From Burkholderiaceae bacterium (GTDB lineage: Bacteria; Pseudomonadota; Gammaproteobacteria; Burkholderiales; Burkholderiaceae_E), in contig JAHEDO010000366.1 in the NCBI GenBank assembly GCA_024641185.1, positions 1 to 34,189 on the forward strand: a stretch of 34,189 bases of DNA, read 5' to 3'. Position 1 is the first letter of the stretch; every line of letters begins with the position of its first letter. Shown piece by piece: positions 24,445-32,259 of this stretch. Below the pieces are notes generated by a model that saw nothing but the letters and a program-made list of their open reading frames with translations, was not told where the DNA came from and ran no database searches. A program made the position numbers and the translations under genes.

Positions 24445-26739
24445 CTATTCGACGAGTCCGAGCGACGCGATCCCCTGCCCGGGCAGAGTTTCCTCGTAAT
24501 ACCAGTCACCGTCCCAGTCGACGACCCCCGGCGGCGGCGGCATCGAACGTTCGGGAACCCCTTTGAGTGCCTTGGCCATGTAGGCCATCCAGATCGGCAG
24601 CGCGAGCCCTCCGCCGGTCTCGCGGCTGCCAAGCTTGCGCGGCTGGTCGAACCCGACCCAGGTGATCGCAGCGATGGTCGGCTGGTAACCGGCGAACCAT
24701 GCATCGTGCGAGTCGTTGGTCGTGCCGGTCTTGCCGGCCAGGTCGCCGCGATGCAGTGACTGCGCGCGTGTCGCGGTACCCGCCCTAACCACCTCGCGCA
24801 GCAGTGAATTCATGATGAAGGCGTTGCGCGCGTCGATCACGCGCAGGCCCTCGTCGCCGGCGTGGCCCGGGTGCGCCTGTGCGAGGAGCCGGCCGTCGGA
24901 GTCGGTGATCTGCGAAATCAGGTAGGGCTCGACCCGATAGCCGCCGTTGGCGAATACCGAGTAGGCGCCTGCCATCTGCCAGGGCGTGACCGCGCCCGCG
25001 CCCAGCGCCATCGTCAGGTACGCAGGATGGCGCGCGGCGTCGAAGCCGAAGCGGGTGATGTAGTCCTGCGCGTAACGTGGCCCGATCGCCTGCAGCACGC
25101 GGATCGACACCATGTTCTTGGACTTCGCCAGCGCCTGACGCAACGGCAACGGCCCGTCGTACTTGCCGTCGTAGTTCTTGGGGTCCCACGCCTGGCCGCC
25201 GGTGAGGGCGGGGTCGATCGAGATCGGCGCGTCGTTGATGATCGTCGTGGTCATGAACCCCTTCTCGAGCGCGCTCGAATAGATGAAGGGCTTGAAGCTC
25301 GACCCCGGCTGGCGCCAGGCCTGGGTCGCGCGATTGAACTTGTTGTGGCGGAAGTCGAAGCCGCCGACCATCGCGCGCACCGATCCGTCGTCGGTATTGC
25401 AGGCGACGAGCGCCGCCTCGACCTCGGGGACCTGCGCGATCTCCCACTCGGCGGGCTTGGACTCGGTGATCCGCACCACCGAACCGCGGCGGATCCTCTT
25501 CGCCGCCGGCAGCCGATCGCGCAAGGCCGCGGCGGCGAACTTCAGCCCGTCGCCGCGGATCTCGATGATCGCCCCCCGTCCGCGGGTCACCTTGACCGAT
25601 TGCGGACTCGCCTCGAGCACCACCGCGGCGAGAAAATCGTCGACGTCGGCCGCGTCCGAGACCGCGTCGTCGATCTGGTCTTCGGCCCGCTGCGGGTCGC
25701 TGGACAACTCCACGTAGGCTTCGGGGCCCCGATAGCCGTACTTTCGGTCGTAGTCGATCACGCCGTTCTTGACCGCGGCGTTGGCCGCTCGCTGGTCCTC
25801 GGAGAGCACGGTCGTGTAGACCTTCAGTCCGGCGGTGTAGGTGTCCTCGTGAAACATCTCGTGGGTGAGCGCTCGTGCCATCTCCGCGACGTAAGGGGCC
25901 TGCAGCGTGTCCTCGCGTGCGGACGCGGCGTAGCGCAGCTTTTCCTCGAGTGCGTCCCGGTACTGCGGCTCGCTGAGCACGCCGATCTCGTACATGCGGC
26001 GCAGGATGTAGTGCTGGCGCTCGGTCGCGCGTTTGGGGTTGACCAGCGGGTTGAACAGCGACGGCGCCTTGGGCAGACCGGCCAGCATCGCCGCCTCGGC
26101 CGCCGAGAGCGCCGAAATCGGCTTGCCGAAGTAGACCTGCGCCGCCGAGGCGAATCCGTAGGCGCGCTTGCCGAGGAAGATCTGGTTGATGTAGACCTCG
26201 AGGATCTGCTGTTTCGACAGGCTCTCCTCGATCCGAAGCGCGAGCAGGATCTCGTAGATCTTGCGCGTGTAGGTCTTCTCGCTGGACAGGAAGAAGTTTC
26301 GGGCGACCTGCATCGTGATCGTGCTCGCGCCCTGTTCGCGACCGCCGGAGACCACGTTCGTCACTGCCGCGCGAGCGATGCCGACGATATCGACGCCGGA
26401 GTGCTCGAAGAAGCGCGCGTCTTCCGCGGCCAGGATCGCGTTGCGCAGCACCGGGGGCACGTCCGCGATGTGCACGACGCTGCGCCTTTCCTCGCCGAAC
26501 TCGCCGATCAGCTGCCCGTCGGCGGTATAGATTCTGAGCGGGACCTTCGGCCGGTACTCGACCAGCGCGTCGATCGACGGCAGCCGGTCATTGGCCAACA
26601 GCAGCGCGACGGTTCCGAGGAGCGCGGCGCAGACCGCGCCGACCAGCGGCAATGCGATCAGCGCGCCGACAAGCTTCGGCCAGGCGAAGCCGCGATGGTG
26701 CCGGCGATTGCGATCGTGGGGCGTGATGTGCTTGCGCAT
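24445..26739 (-). CDS. mrcA: Penicillin-binding protein 1A
   Basis: This bifunctional enzyme polymerises glycan and cross-links peptidoglycan from the inner membrane. The 764-residue product has a basic cytoplasmic tail, TM at about 21-49, and a GT51 domain with catalytic E106 in AAEDARFFEHSGVD and QGASTITMQVARNFF. An OB-like insert (about 340-430) follows, then the transpeptidase: S480-S-F-K483 in QPGSSFKPF, SKN (540-542) and KTGTT (670-674). ATG 26739 is chosen because upstream codons of the open frame cover the promoter. Divergence from pilMNOPQ is a common betaproteobacterial and pseudomonad arrangement. Confidence 0.96.
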   Translation of the reverse strand: MRKHITPHDRNRRHHRGFAWPKLVGALIALPLVGAVCAALLGTVALLLANDRLPSIDALVEYRPKVPLRIYTADGQLIGEFGEERRSVVHIADVPPVLRNAILAAEDARFFEHSGVDIVGIARAAVTNVVSGGREQGASTITMQVARNFFLSSEKTYTRKIYEILLALRIEESLSKQQILEVYINQIFLGKRAYGFASAAQVYFGKPISALSAAEAAMLAGLPKAPSLFNPLVNPKRATERQHYILRRMYEIGVLSEPQYRDALEEKLRYAASAREDTLQAPYVAEMARALTHEMFHEDTYTAGLKVYTTVLSEDQRAANAAVKNGVIDYDRKYGYRGPEAYVELSSDPQRAEDQIDDAVSDAADVDDFLAAVVLEASPQSVKVTRGRGAIIEIRGDGLKFAAAALRDRLPAAKRIRRGSVVRITESKPAEWEIAQVPEVEAALVACNTDDGSVRAMVGGFDFRHNKFNRATQAWRQPGSSFKPFIYSSALEKGFMTTTIINDAPISIDPALTGGQAWDPKNYDGKYDGPLPLRQALAKSKNMVSIRVLQAIGPRYAQDYITRFGFDAARHPAYLTMALGAGAVTPWQMAGAYSVFANGGYRVEPYLISQITDSDGRLLAQAHPGHAGDEGLRVIDARNAFIMNSLLREVVRAGTATRAQSLHRGDLAGKTGTTNDSHDAWFAGYQPTIAAITWVGFDQPRKLGSRETGGGLALPIWMAYMAKALKGVPERSMPPPPGVVDWDGDWYYEETLPGQGIASLGLVE

Positions 26740-26845: not shown

Positions 26846-26915
26846 AATTTCTGCCAGATGGTCGAGAAGCTACGACAGAAGGGCGTTGCACCTGGTGATC
26901 GCGCTGTCAAAAAAC

Positions 26916-26945
26916 TTTACAGTTAACAAACATTGTTGCTAGCAT
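26916..26945 (+). promoter_or_regulatory. Probable pilM operon promoter with internal inverted repeat
   Basis: TTTACA (26916-26921) and TAGCAT (26940-26945) are 18 bases apart, with TGC (26937-26939) forming an extended -10. The spacer holds AACAA-ACA-TTGTT (26925-26937), a perfect inverted repeat placed where a repressor would block polymerase. The surrounding 100 bases are markedly AT-rich compared with the rest of the window. Confidence 0.5.
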
Positions 26946-26972
26946 CTCAAGTAACTTATTGAAAATCCATAT

Positions 26973-26998
26973 AAATCCTTAACGCATAAGGGTTTTTT
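26973..26998 (+). terminator. Terminator-like hairpin in the pilM leader
   Basis: AAATCCTTA (26973-26981) pairs with TAAGGGTTT (26987-26995) around ACGCA, 9 pairs with one G-U. The 3' arm runs into TTTTTT (26993-26998). It lies between the predicted promoter and the pilM start codon (27018), so it can only act as an attenuator or leader structure. The AAGGGG Shine-Dalgarno (27007-27012) could compete with AAGG of the 3' arm for CCTT (26977-26980). Confidence 0.5.
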
Positions 26999-27017
26999 GG
27001 GTTTAAAAGGGGTTCAG

Positions 27018-28100
27018 GTGGCGCTAAGTTTACCCAGTCTTGCGCGGCGCGCGTCGCCGCCCCTTCTCGGGATCGACGTGAGTTCGTCCGGCGTCAAGAT
27101 CGTCGAACTCGTCCCGGGCGAAAAATCCGCCATGCGCCTGCTGCGCTATGCGATCGAGCCGATCGAGCGCGGCGCGATCGCCGACGGCAATGTCGAGCAG
27201 CCCGAACAGGTCGCCGACGCGCTGAATCGTGCACTGCGACGGATGGGCTCGCGCACGCGGGATGCCGCGCTGGCGATGCCGGCCTCCGCGGTGATCACGA
27301 AGCGGATCACGCTGCCGGCCGGGCTCTCCGAGGAAGACTACGAATTCCAGGTCGAGTCCGAGGCGAGCCAGTACATCCCGTTCGCGATCGAGGAGGTGAA
27401 CCTGGACTTCCAGATCCTGGGAGTCGCCGCAAGCGAGGAAGACGAGGTCGACGTCCTGCTCGCGGCGTCGCGCAAGGAAAAGGTAGAGGACCGCGTCGCC
27501 ATCGCGGAGATGTGCGGCCTCAAGCCGATGGTGATGGACGTCGACACCTACGCGGCCCGCCAGGCGCTGGATCGGGTCGCAGGGATGCTGCCAAACCAGG
27601 GGCAGGGCCTCGTCATTGCAGTGTTCGATATCGGCAGCGTCGTCACCAACGTGTCGGTCGTCCTGAACGGACAGACCGTCTTCGAGCGTGAGCAGGCGTT
27701 CGGCGGGCAGCATCTCACGCAGGACCTGGTCAGGCTCTACGGGCTCACGCCCGAGGAGGCGGAGCTGAAGAAGCGGGTCGGAGATCTCCCGGAGAGCTTC
27801 CAGACCGACGTGCTTCAGCCCTTCGTCGAGCAAGGCGCGTCCGACGTGATGCGTGCGCTCCAGTTCTTCTTCACTTCGACGCCGTACGCGCGGGTCGACC
27901 GGATCTACCTCGCCGGGGGTTCGAGCGTCGTCCCGGGCCTGGTCGAGGCGATCGCGGATCGCACCCAGGTGCCCACCGAGCTCCTCAGCCCGTTCCAGGG
28001 CATGGAGATCGCCGACACGGTCCGTGAGAAGCAGTTGCGCCTGGATGCACCGGCGCTGGTGACCGCCTGCGGGCTGGCAATGCGGAGGTTCGACGCATGA
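27018..28100 (+). CDS. pilM: Type IV pilus assembly protein PilM
   Basis: PilM is an actin-like cytoplasmic ATP-binding protein that holds the PilN tail in the inner-membrane alignment complex. The 360-residue product has the ATPase phosphate-1 motif LLGIDVSSSGVKIVEL near the start, EEDYEFQVESEASQYIPF, phosphate-2 AVFDIGSVVTNVSVV, and adenosine motif IYLAGGSSVVPGL. I start at GTG 27018, with AAGGGG 5 bases upstream. A TTG at 26997 is in frame but overlaps the leader hairpin. The pilN start overlaps its stop. Confidence 0.96.
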   Translation: MALSLPSLARRASPPLLGIDVSSSGVKIVELVPGEKSAMRLLRYAIEPIERGAIADGNVEQPEQVADALNRALRRMGSRTRDAALAMPASAVITKRITLPAGLSEEDYEFQVESEASQYIPFAIEEVNLDFQILGVAASEEDEVDVLLAASRKEKVEDRVAIAEMCGLKPMVMDVDTYAARQALDRVAGMLPNQGQGLVIAVFDIGSVVTNVSVVLNGQTVFEREQAFGGQHLTQDLVRLYGLTPEEAELKKRVGDLPESFQTDVLQPFVEQGASDVMRALQFFFTSTPYARVDRIYLAGGSSVVPGLVEAIADRTQVPTELLSPFQGMEIADTVREKQLRLDAPALVTACGLAMRRFDA

Positions 28101-29474: not shown

Positions 29475-30037
29475 CTACGGTGACCATGCGGGGCGCAACT
29501 GCTCTGGTCCGGGTGGCGACGATCGCGCTGGCTTGCGGCGTGCTGCTCGGCGGCTGCGGCGACGATCAGCAGGACTTGCGCTCCTGGATGCAGGCGCAGC
29601 GCGGTGCGATGCCGACGATCAAGGAGAAGATCCCGCCGCCCCGGCAGTTCCAGCCGTTCCGCTACGAGAACGCCGGGCAGTCCGACCCGTTCGCGCAGTC
29701 GAGACTGGCCTCCAAGGGCGGCGCGGTGCCGTCCAGCGGCATCCAGCCGGACCTGGCCCGTCGCCGCGAGGCGCTCGAGGGCTTTCCGCTCGATGCGATC
29801 CGGATGGTCGGGCACATGAGCAACGGGCAGAAGAACTTTGCGCTGCTCCAGGTGGACAACATGGTCTACCAGGCGCGGGTGGGTAATTACGCCGGGCAGA
29901 ACTTCGGAATGATCACGCGAGTGACCGAATCCGAAGTCCAGTTGAAGGAGCTGGTGCAGGACGCGGCCGGCGACTGGACGGAGCGCGAGACCGCGCTGCG
30001 TCTACAGGAGAGCAAGATGCGGGAGACGAAGAAATGA
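29471..30037 (+). CDS. pilP: Type IV pilus lipoprotein PilP
   Basis: PilP is an inner-membrane lipoprotein linking PilNO to the secretin. The 188-residue product has a signal peptide ending in lipobox LGGC (C29), an unstructured region with PPPRQFQPFRYENAGQSDPF that binds PilNO, then a beta-domain with LEGFPLDAIRMVGHMSNGQK, YQARVGNYAGQNFGMITRV. Overlaps with pilO and pilQ (ATGA both sides) keep it within the coupled operon. Confidence 0.95.
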   Translation: MTTVTMRGATALVRVATIALACGVLLGGCGDDQQDLRSWMQAQRGAMPTIKEKIPPPRQFQPFRYENAGQSDPFAQSRLASKGGAVPSSGIQPDLARRREALEGFPLDAIRMVGHMSNGQKNFALLQVDNMVYQARVGNYAGQNFGMITRVTESEVQLKELVQDAAGDWTERETALRLQESKMRETKK

Positions 30038-32259
30038 AGATGAGTCGTGGTGCCAATACCGCCGCCGGACTGTTCGGTGCCCGCCTGTTCGTGCTCTGCC
30101 TGTCGCTGCTCGCCGGGGTCGCGCTCGCGCAGACCAACGCGATCGAGTCCGTGACAAGCCTTCAACAAGGCAAGACGACCTATCTGCGCGTCCAGCTGAA
30201 GTCGCCGCCTGCCACGCCGCCGGCGAGTTTCTCGATCAGCAATCCGCCACGCGTCGCGCTCGACTTCAGCGCGACCGAAAACAAGGCGGGGCAGAGCAGT
30301 TTCGAGATGACGCAGGGTGACGTTCGCAGCGTCGCGATCGTGCAGGCGGGCAAGCGTGCCCGCGTCGTGCTGAACCTGAAGCAGGCGATGACCTACACGA
30401 CCTCGGTGGATGGCAGTGCGGTGATCCTGGCGCTCACGCCGGTCGCGGCGCAGGCCGCCGAGACGCCGGCGCAGACCTACACCTTCTCGAAGTCCGACAG
30501 TCAGGCGATCCACGCGCTGCGCGATCTCGACTTTCGTCGCGGCAAGGAAGGAGAGGGTCGGGTCGTGGTCGAATTGTCGGACAGCAACGTCGGTGTGGAC
30601 ATCCGCCAGCAGGGCCGCTCGATCATCGTCGACTTCCTGCGGGCGCGACTGCCGGAAAATCTTCGGCGGCGCCTGGACGTCGGTGACTTCGGAACCCCGG
30701 TCAAGTCGGTCAGCGCGACCCAGGAAGGCGATACCACCCGCGTCGTGATCGAGCCGCAGGGTGAATTCGAGCAGACCGCATACCAGAGCGACACGCAGTT
30801 CGTGATCGAGGTGAAGCCTCGGCGCGAGGACCCGAACAAGCTGGCCACGCGCCAGGGCTATCGTGGCGAGCGGCTGTCGCTGAACTTCCAGAACGTCGAC
30901 ATCCGCGCACTGCTTCAGGTGATCGCCGACTTCACGAACCTGAACATCGTCACCAGCGACTCGGTCGCGGGCACCTTGACGCTGCGCCTGAAGGACGTTC
31001 CCTGGGATCAGGCGCTCGACATCGTGCTGCAGTCCAAGGGTCTGGACATGCGCAAGAACGGCAACGTGATCCTGGTCGCGCCGCGCGAGGAACTTGCCAC
31101 CAAGGAGAAGCTCGAGCTCGAGGCGCGCCAGCAGATCTCCGAGGTCGAGCCGGTGCGCAGCGAGATGTTCCAGCTGAACTACCAGAAGGCCGAGAACATG
31201 GCCAAGCTGCTCACGAACGAGAAGCAGCGGATCTTGTCCAAGCGCGGCAGTGCCGTCTTCGACGAGCGAACCAACAAGCTGTTCGTGCAGGACACGCCTG
31301 TGCGCCTGGAAGACGTGAGAAAGCTGATCACGCAGGTCGACGTGTCGGTGCGCCAGGTGCTGATCGAGGCGCGCATCGTCGAAGCCAGCGACACCTTCTC
31401 GCGCAACCTGGGGGTGAAGCTCGGGTACAACGATACGCGCTCGACGATCACGAAAACCGTCGGAGTCATCGACCCGGCGACCGGGCAAACTATCAATATG
31501 AACGTGCCGGTCTACGGTCCCGGCAGCTCCATCGGCGGCGGCGGGCTGGGGACCGTGTCGGGCAACCTGAGCGGCGTCGCGGACCTGTCGTCGCAGAACG
31601 GCACCACGCTTCCCGGACCGAACGCGGTCGGCATCGGACAGCTGACGGCGCTTGGCAACACCAACTTCGTGAACCTGCCGGCCGGGGTGATCAACGGCTT
31701 CTCGCCCGCGACCTTCGCGATCAGCCTGTTCGGGTCGTCTCTGACGCGGTTCCTGAACCTGGAACTGTCGGCCCTGGAGGCGGACCAGCGCGGCAAGGTG
31801 GTGTCGAGCCCGCGCGTGCTCACCGCCGACAAGACGAAGGCGACGATCGAGCAGGGCACCGAGCTGCCGTTCCAGCAGGCGACCTCGAGCGGCGCGACGT
31901 CGATCTCGTTCCGCAAGGCGGTCCTGAAGCTCGAGGTGACTCCCCAGATCACGCCCGAGGGCAACGTGATCATGGAGGTCGCGGTCAACCGTGACGCGGT
32001 CGGCGTTCTGACGCCTTCAGGCTACGCGATCGACACGCGGTCGGTGCGCACCCAGGTGCTCGTCGAAAACGGTGGCACGGTGGTCATCGGCGGCATCTAC
32101 GAGCAGGTGGAGAGCAACGCGGAGAACAAGGTGCCGTTCCTGGGCGACCTGCCGATCATCGGCTATGCGTTCAAGGAGACGGCGCGCCGCAACGATCGCA
32201 CCGAACTGCTGGTGTTCCTGACGCCACGCGTGGTGACCGATACGGCGATGGCGCGCTGA
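30034..32259 (+). CDS. pilQ: Type IV pilus secretin PilQ
   Basis: PilQ forms the outer-membrane channel for pili. The 741-residue product has a signal peptide (cut near A32, VALAQT), two AMIN domains that bind peptidoglycan (about 40-135 and 160-270), an STN/N0 domain beginning LSLNFQNVDIRALLQVIADF, and an N1 domain around FQLNYQKAENMAKLLTNEKQ. The secretin core has VLIEARIVEASDTFSRNLGV, SSPRVLTADKTKATIEQG, and the ending VPFLGDLPIIGYAFK...LLVFLTPRVV. A Gly/Ser/Asn-rich gate insertion (about 490-560) is typical. A strong terminator follows. Confidence 0.97.
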   Translation: MKMSRGANTAAGLFGARLFVLCLSLLAGVALAQTNAIESVTSLQQGKTTYLRVQLKSPPATPPASFSISNPPRVALDFSATENKAGQSSFEMTQGDVRSVAIVQAGKRARVVLNLKQAMTYTTSVDGSAVILALTPVAAQAAETPAQTYTFSKSDSQAIHALRDLDFRRGKEGEGRVVVELSDSNVGVDIRQQGRSIIVDFLRARLPENLRRRLDVGDFGTPVKSVSATQEGDTTRVVIEPQGEFEQTAYQSDTQFVIEVKPRREDPNKLATRQGYRGERLSLNFQNVDIRALLQVIADFTNLNIVTSDSVAGTLTLRLKDVPWDQALDIVLQSKGLDMRKNGNVILVAPREELATKEKLELEARQQISEVEPVRSEMFQLNYQKAENMAKLLTNEKQRILSKRGSAVFDERTNKLFVQDTPVRLEDVRKLITQVDVSVRQVLIEARIVEASDTFSRNLGVKLGYNDTRSTITKTVGVIDPATGQTINMNVPVYGPGSSIGGGGLGTVSGNLSGVADLSSQNGTTLPGPNAVGIGQLTALGNTNFVNLPAGVINGFSPATFAISLFGSSLTRFLNLELSALEADQRGKVVSSPRVLTADKTKATIEQGTELPFQQATSSGATSISFRKAVLKLEVTPQITPEGNVIMEVAVNRDAVGVLTPSGYAIDTRSVRTQVLVENGGTVVIGGIYEQVESNAENKVPFLGDLPIIGYAFKETARRNDRTELLVFLTPRVVTDTAMAR

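Follow-up and report, generated by a model that had tools for sequence, protein, structure and literature searches.

In the window, that is, the whole stretch of 34,189 nucleotides analysed here, positions 26900-27017 are the promoter and short leader of a pilMNOPQ-type operon, and this leader holds a hairpin followed by a U-run which, judged by sequence comparison, is a feature of the family and not a product of chance. The comparison of relatives suggests that the hairpin has been kept by selection. As to its function, we propose, with due hesitation, that it works early in transcription as a weak terminator or as a pause hairpin, leading to a partial and probably unconditional attenuation of pilM transcription; that transcripts end there, in what proportion, and with what consequence for the pilus genes is deduced from these features.

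The AT-rich stretch that a first-pass annotation of the same DNA had pointed out in a region of about 65% GC is borne out, with 34.7% GC in 26900-27017 versus 65.6% for the whole window, which belongs to an assembly of 3.2 Mb in 369 contigs. The pilM start position (Table 1) is common to relatives. Downstream of pilM, pilQ is found at 30034-32259, and the three genes between them, for which no NCBIfam match was obtained, are presumably pilN, pilO and pilP, these names being given because of the gene order.

Table 1. Features of the pilM upstream region, in window coordinates
Feature	Position	Strand	Basis or remark
mrcA/ponA-type penicillin-binding protein, divergent	24445-26736	-	TIGR02074 PBP_1a_fam, 632 bits; 26736, where translation was run from, is a provisional upper end
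A-tract, UP-element-like (putative function)	26908-26914	+	sequence; A-rich before CTTTACA in most relatives
-35 hexamer TTTACA	26916-26921	+	(C)TTTACA conserved in this and other families
AACAA-N3-TTGTT inverted repeat (AACAAACATTGTT)	26925-26937	+	right half is conserved promoter, left half not conserved
Extended -10 region TTGTTGCTAGCAT, hexamer TAGCAT at 26940-26945	26933-26945	+	conserved
Presumed pilM transcript start (~26952), then ~21 nt before the hairpin	26952-26972	+	deduced from the -10 position
9-bp hairpin AAATCCTTA-ACGCA-TAAGGGTTT (arms 26973-26981 and 26987-26995, loop 26982-26986)	26973-26995	+	-6.9 kcal/mol; covariation; arm-swap test; leader counts
AAGGG inside the hairpin 3' arm	26988-26992	+	position of the likely pilM Shine-Dalgarno in other Burkholderiales families
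T6 run	26993-26998	+	T5 or longer in 39/59 leaders versus 4/34 other-family leaders
pilM Shine-Dalgarno AGGGG	27008-27012	+	5 nt before the start; purine-rich box at like distance in relatives
pilM, GTG start	27018-28100	+	TIGR01175 pilM, 299 bits versus a cut-off of 133

pilM is present in 60 of the 74 family genomes, a match at E up to 1e-20 being absent from g3, g9 and g11 (12 genomes) and from G076 and G090; absence from these 14 genomes may be due to operon loss or to incomplete assemblies. The comparison was based on 59 leaders, 58 from the 60 pilM-bearing family genomes and one (G043) from another family. The two remaining pilM-bearing genomes, G009 and G021, were checked separately because their pilM match came without a leader on the same stretch; in G021, the start of pilM and its remainder lie about 400 kb apart on contig C1 (at about 1522266 and 1117817), beside N runs, and this contig is likely a mis-joined scaffold. 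Alignment A1 comprises 41 leaders (40 distinct). The other 18 (G088, G097, G079, G081, G001, G006, G002, G020, G030, G043 and eight g2 leaders) were left out because the block was absent or not alignable without gaps, and stay counted in the terminator-score, T-run and hairpin-plus-T counts (n = 59). Most g2 leaders (G010, G025, G033, G063, G065-G068) have a different sequence, with inverted repeats and T-runs of their own. Pairing probabilities refer to 39 of the 41 aligned leaders, the two in which the start codon is far away being excluded. Besides, alignment A2 and model R1, which covers promoter, leader and hairpin, were built from 28 hand-picked leaders. R1 gave one site each in 44 of the 74 family genomes, 28 of these matches being its own training sequences, and all 44 lie just before pilM according to a by-eye comparison with pilM positions (G009 and G021 checked apart); no R1 match was obtained in the 14 family genomes without pilM or in 16 pilM-bearing ones. 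In a sample of 300 genomes of the order, 58 had R1 matches at E up to 0.1, mostly weak. Finally, the other-family set consists of 34 distinct leaders from 43 loci, two duplicates and seven loci without a promoter-pattern match (one being G043, counted with the 59) having been lost; L069, which is among the 34, appears to match the pattern falsely.

The extended -10 promoter described in the first-pass annotation stands, and is conserved well beyond the family. The scan recorded 9 of 12 matching positions, an 18-bp spacer between -35 and -10 and the TG of an extended -10 sigma-70 promoter; as such a scan returns about as many sites as in shuffled sequences, it is conservation that provides real support. 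Among the family leaders, the -35 and extended -10 are strongly conserved together with the bases that follow, and the same promoter, with a comparable leader, precedes pilM in many other families, in a set which, being chosen by promoter pattern and partly by R1, is no proof of the promoter's spread. A wider regulon was rejected, given that the 26933-26954 motif has a single occurrence in the whole genome with up to three mismatches allowed and that R1 yields one match per matching family genome. With their fixed spacing across many families and their single occurrence per genome, promoter and leader make a clean mark of the pilM promoter in Burkholderiales.

The operator-like repeat previously noticed in the spacer is indeed present there, but its role as a protein operator was rejected: only TTGTT is conserved, and it belongs to the promoter, whereas AACAA-N3 is found upstream of TTGTTGnTA in the window only, i.e., in one of the 13 leaders with TTGTTGnTA. 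A second operator-like inverted repeat, GGTCG-N8-CGAC at 26860-26876 (element about 26852-26884), sits between the mrcA and pilM promoters and lies within GGATGGTCG-N8-CGACGGATGG in relatives; GGTCG-N4-14-CGAC occurs upstream of pilM in 34 of the 59 leaders, the surrounding sequence being alike in almost all of them, with a loose match in G023. The transcribed stretch after the -10 (26946-26975 in the window; L055-L131) is conserved in other families too and reads GTAAATTAT..., followed by CTAACC at fixed spacing. Inspection by eye led to the rejection of a leader peptide in the frame ending at the conserved TAA: in the window, the fourth codon from GTA is an in-frame TGA, the leaders share no start codon and their changes do not resemble those of a coding sequence.

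The hairpin running into TTTTTT some 20 bases before pilM was confirmed as well, the end of the T6 being separated from the GTG by 19 nt. The predicted stem takes in the first three T of the run, leaving three free, and is A-U-rich, with two G-C pairs and a G-U. Neither strand of the window has another hairpin of at least eight pairs with T5, and 8 of 500 shuffles of 26900-27017 contain such a hairpin. The hairpin energy over 26970-27002 is equalled by 12 of 200 shuffles, and the folding energy over 26950-27040 has a z of -1.13. Hairpin energy alone is only suggestive and the single sequence is only moderately unlikely; the weight for the hairpin comes from the comparison with relatives. Its predicted pairing probability is 0.96 in the window, with a mean of 0.44 over the 39 leaders. 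As it lies downstream of the promoter, with only the divergent gene upstream, a terminator at this place would act solely on the pilM transcript.

In the alignment-free counts, a hairpin of at least six pairs with T4 was detected in 32 of the 59 leaders, where 7.9 were expected, and one of at least eight pairs with T5 in 13, where 0.6 were expected, compared to none of the 34 other-family leaders in both cases. Within the 41 aligned leaders, 78.6% of cells pair versus 70.8% after shuffling, and 34 cells are changed on both sides versus 14.6 +/- 2.8. Such two-sided changes include AAGTCC with GGACTT (G086, G091, G093) and AAAC with GTTT (g16). The covariation score amounts to 0.304, compared to 0.180 +/- 0.014 for shuffles and at most 0.136 for slid partners, and to 0.245 versus 0.175 in the 28 leaders; it was reached by none of 500 shuffles, pointing to compensatory change, with relatedness not fully removed and the shuffle controls ignoring the kinship of the leaders. 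Own arms pair better than swapped ones: when whole 3' arms were swapped and close relatives progressively removed, z went from -5.1 to -3.2, -2.0 and -1.85 for 41, 27, 21 and 17 leaders, and swapped arms did as well in 0/500, 1/500, 16/500 and 18/500 cases. This support, which becomes modest in the smaller sets, indicates a real signal that owes part of its strength to related sequences. Many members have a weak or interrupted stem, e.g., g8, g14, g15, the majority of g2 and some of g1 and g7. The G009 leader, outside the alignments, has an 8-pair hairpin with T5. The equivalent block stands at a greater distance from the start codon in G013, G018, G020, G030 and G043, which would fit an action independent of the ribosome site; in all five, the stem is weak or altered.

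As a terminator, the hairpin would be a weak one. The terminator score d is -20.9 in the window; it exceeds 0 in one of the 59 leaders, and 22 of the 59 beat at least 95% of their own 40 shuffles. As a control, 21 RNA-gene 3' flanks from six family genomes were scored, among which four clear terminators reached 12.8 (in the window's own genome), 25.4, 38.7 and 54.6; d is below zero for the remaining 17, meaning that a low value is also common where no such terminator exists. With two G-C pairs only, the stem departs from the G+C-rich stable stem directly followed by a U-run that defines an intrinsic terminator, and the consensus terminator scan did not pick it up because it demands three G-C pairs. 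The terminator of the first-pass annotation thus stands as a hairpin and U-run recognised by comparison, and falls short in strength.

The AAGGG in the hairpin 3' arm of the window begins 42 nt after the -10, and in the other families an ARGG begins 42-46 nt after it in 29 of the 34 leaders, many of these boxes standing, by eye, just before a likely in-frame TTG start; for some other families, an ATG lying before the ARGG box is the alternative start. In the family, the pilM starts lie farther downstream, behind another purine-rich box. Given this match in position and the downstream start, the hairpin 3' arm appears to be an old ribosome-binding segment. Among the 41 aligned family leaders, ARGG is found at 41-42 nt in 15 and not at that place in 25, and one has no recognised -10. 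That the old pilM Shine-Dalgarno, fixed at about 42 nt from the -10 in much of the order, left translation when the start shifted downstream and has since served an attenuator hairpin as its 3' arm is a doubtful, though conceivable, history. The window also has an in-frame TTG (26997-26999), 4 nt after AAGGG, which could give a PilM seven residues longer; translation from it was rejected, the TTG having no counterpart in relatives such as G008 and G094.

Partial early termination or pausing accounts jointly for the hairpin and the U-run, and is for this reason our first choice, albeit held short of conviction. Transcription would start near 26952 from the extended -10 promoter, and about 21 nt later the RNA polymerase would transcribe the 9-bp A-U-rich hairpin, then U6. 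Whether as an intrinsic terminator of low strength or as a pause hairpin, this element may cause a fraction of the transcripts to end near 26996-26999, while the remaining ones would read into pilM, giving a modest expression level with no dedicated ligand switch. Somewhat less probable, and on the unlikely side, is an action of the hairpin on the mRNA, in which it would hide the leftover AAGGG from ribosomes and/or protect the 5' end, the U-run possibly binding S1/Hfq. Such a role agrees with the position of the 3' arm at the likely Shine-Dalgarno of other families, with the predicted pairing of the box in the window (probability about 0.96), with the in-frame TTG behind it and with the weakness of the stem, which fits an RNA role better than termination; however, 25 of the 41 aligned leaders lack ARGG there, some still having the stem (G085, G024, G062), G005, G018 and G064 keep AAGG with a weak stem, hiding a Shine-Dalgarno does not need a U-run, and the TTG is not common to relatives. 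It is unlikely, to a further degree, that the element has no regulatory role at all, the AT-rich leader having retained an old ribosome-binding segment by descent and the inverted repeat being incidental: many members have a weak hairpin or none, and the single-sequence significance is marginal, but the enrichment over shuffles and other families, the longer U-runs, the covariation and the arm-swap test all argue against it.

Pilus genes are often regulated, which would favour an attenuator where a protein, a small RNA or a ligand decides between termination and readthrough. A further point in its favour is the ligand-controlled leader terminator before pilM in Geobacter metallireducens, a c-GAMP riboswitch described in PMC9262584. 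This reading is nonetheless very improbable for the window, as only about 21 nt (counted from the presumed start) precede the hairpin and as Rfam gave no match at the gathering threshold, and none at E up to 1 in 26880-27080. A riboswitch (GEMM/c-GAMP or other) was rejected in view of zero aptamer matches in Rfam, and so was the upstream AAATCC copy as an antiterminator, since copies competing for the 3' arm are seen, by eye, in the window and in some g7 leaders, not generally; the conditional readthrough put forward in the first-pass annotation consequently loses its ground. Its other suggestion, translational control through pairing of the hairpin's CCTT with the pilM Shine-Dalgarno, would amount to a block of translation and is scarcely credible: the complementarity exists on paper, but the predicted probability is 0.00 in the window and 0.02 on average over the 39 leaders, exceeding the hairpin in 7 of the 39, where both are low. 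The Shine-Dalgarno is rather predicted to be paired by other partners (mean 0.71) than by the hairpin 5' arm. Taken together, conditional control, the AACAA-N3-TTGTT operator and the anti-Shine-Dalgarno idea find no support. Should transcription indeed stop at the hairpin, this family would have an attenuator built into its pilM operon, and the family comparison would offer a plausible path from ribosome-binding site to part of an attenuator; if the hairpin is without effect, the locus would simply be a well-conserved promoter.

The open-licence PMC literature on pilM attenuation, terminators, promoters and transcription start sites yielded no description of this pilM leader. In common with intrinsic terminators and leader attenuators, an inverted repeat followed by a U-run stands between promoter and first gene, and its arms covary. 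In contrast to intrinsic terminators, the stem is short and A-U-rich, half of the U-run lies in the stem, and d is far below that of same-genome terminators; unlike in leader attenuators, no antiterminator was found for the pilM leader. In Neisseria gonorrhoeae, Folster et al. 2007 reportedly dealt with MtrR control of the ponA/pilMNOPQ intergenic region, i.e., the same divergent gene pair as in the window, this control presumably being of the protein operator type in DNA. The pilM of Pseudomonas putida is listed among the RNAs bound by Rsm (CsrA-family) proteins in PMC7937890, the likeness being a post-transcriptional contact with the pilM transcript; the window arm, judged by its sequence, has AAGGG, and GGA is absent from the hairpin. 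Finally, the c-GAMP riboswitch of Geobacter metallireducens pilM is an ON-switch acting via a terminator, according to PMC9262584 and PMC10907184. Although its aptamer, placed ahead of the terminator, is at least about 75 nt long (PMC9262584), compared to about 21 nt and no Rfam match in the window, it is the nearest precedent, in that a terminator-type decision would likewise be placed in the leader of pilM.
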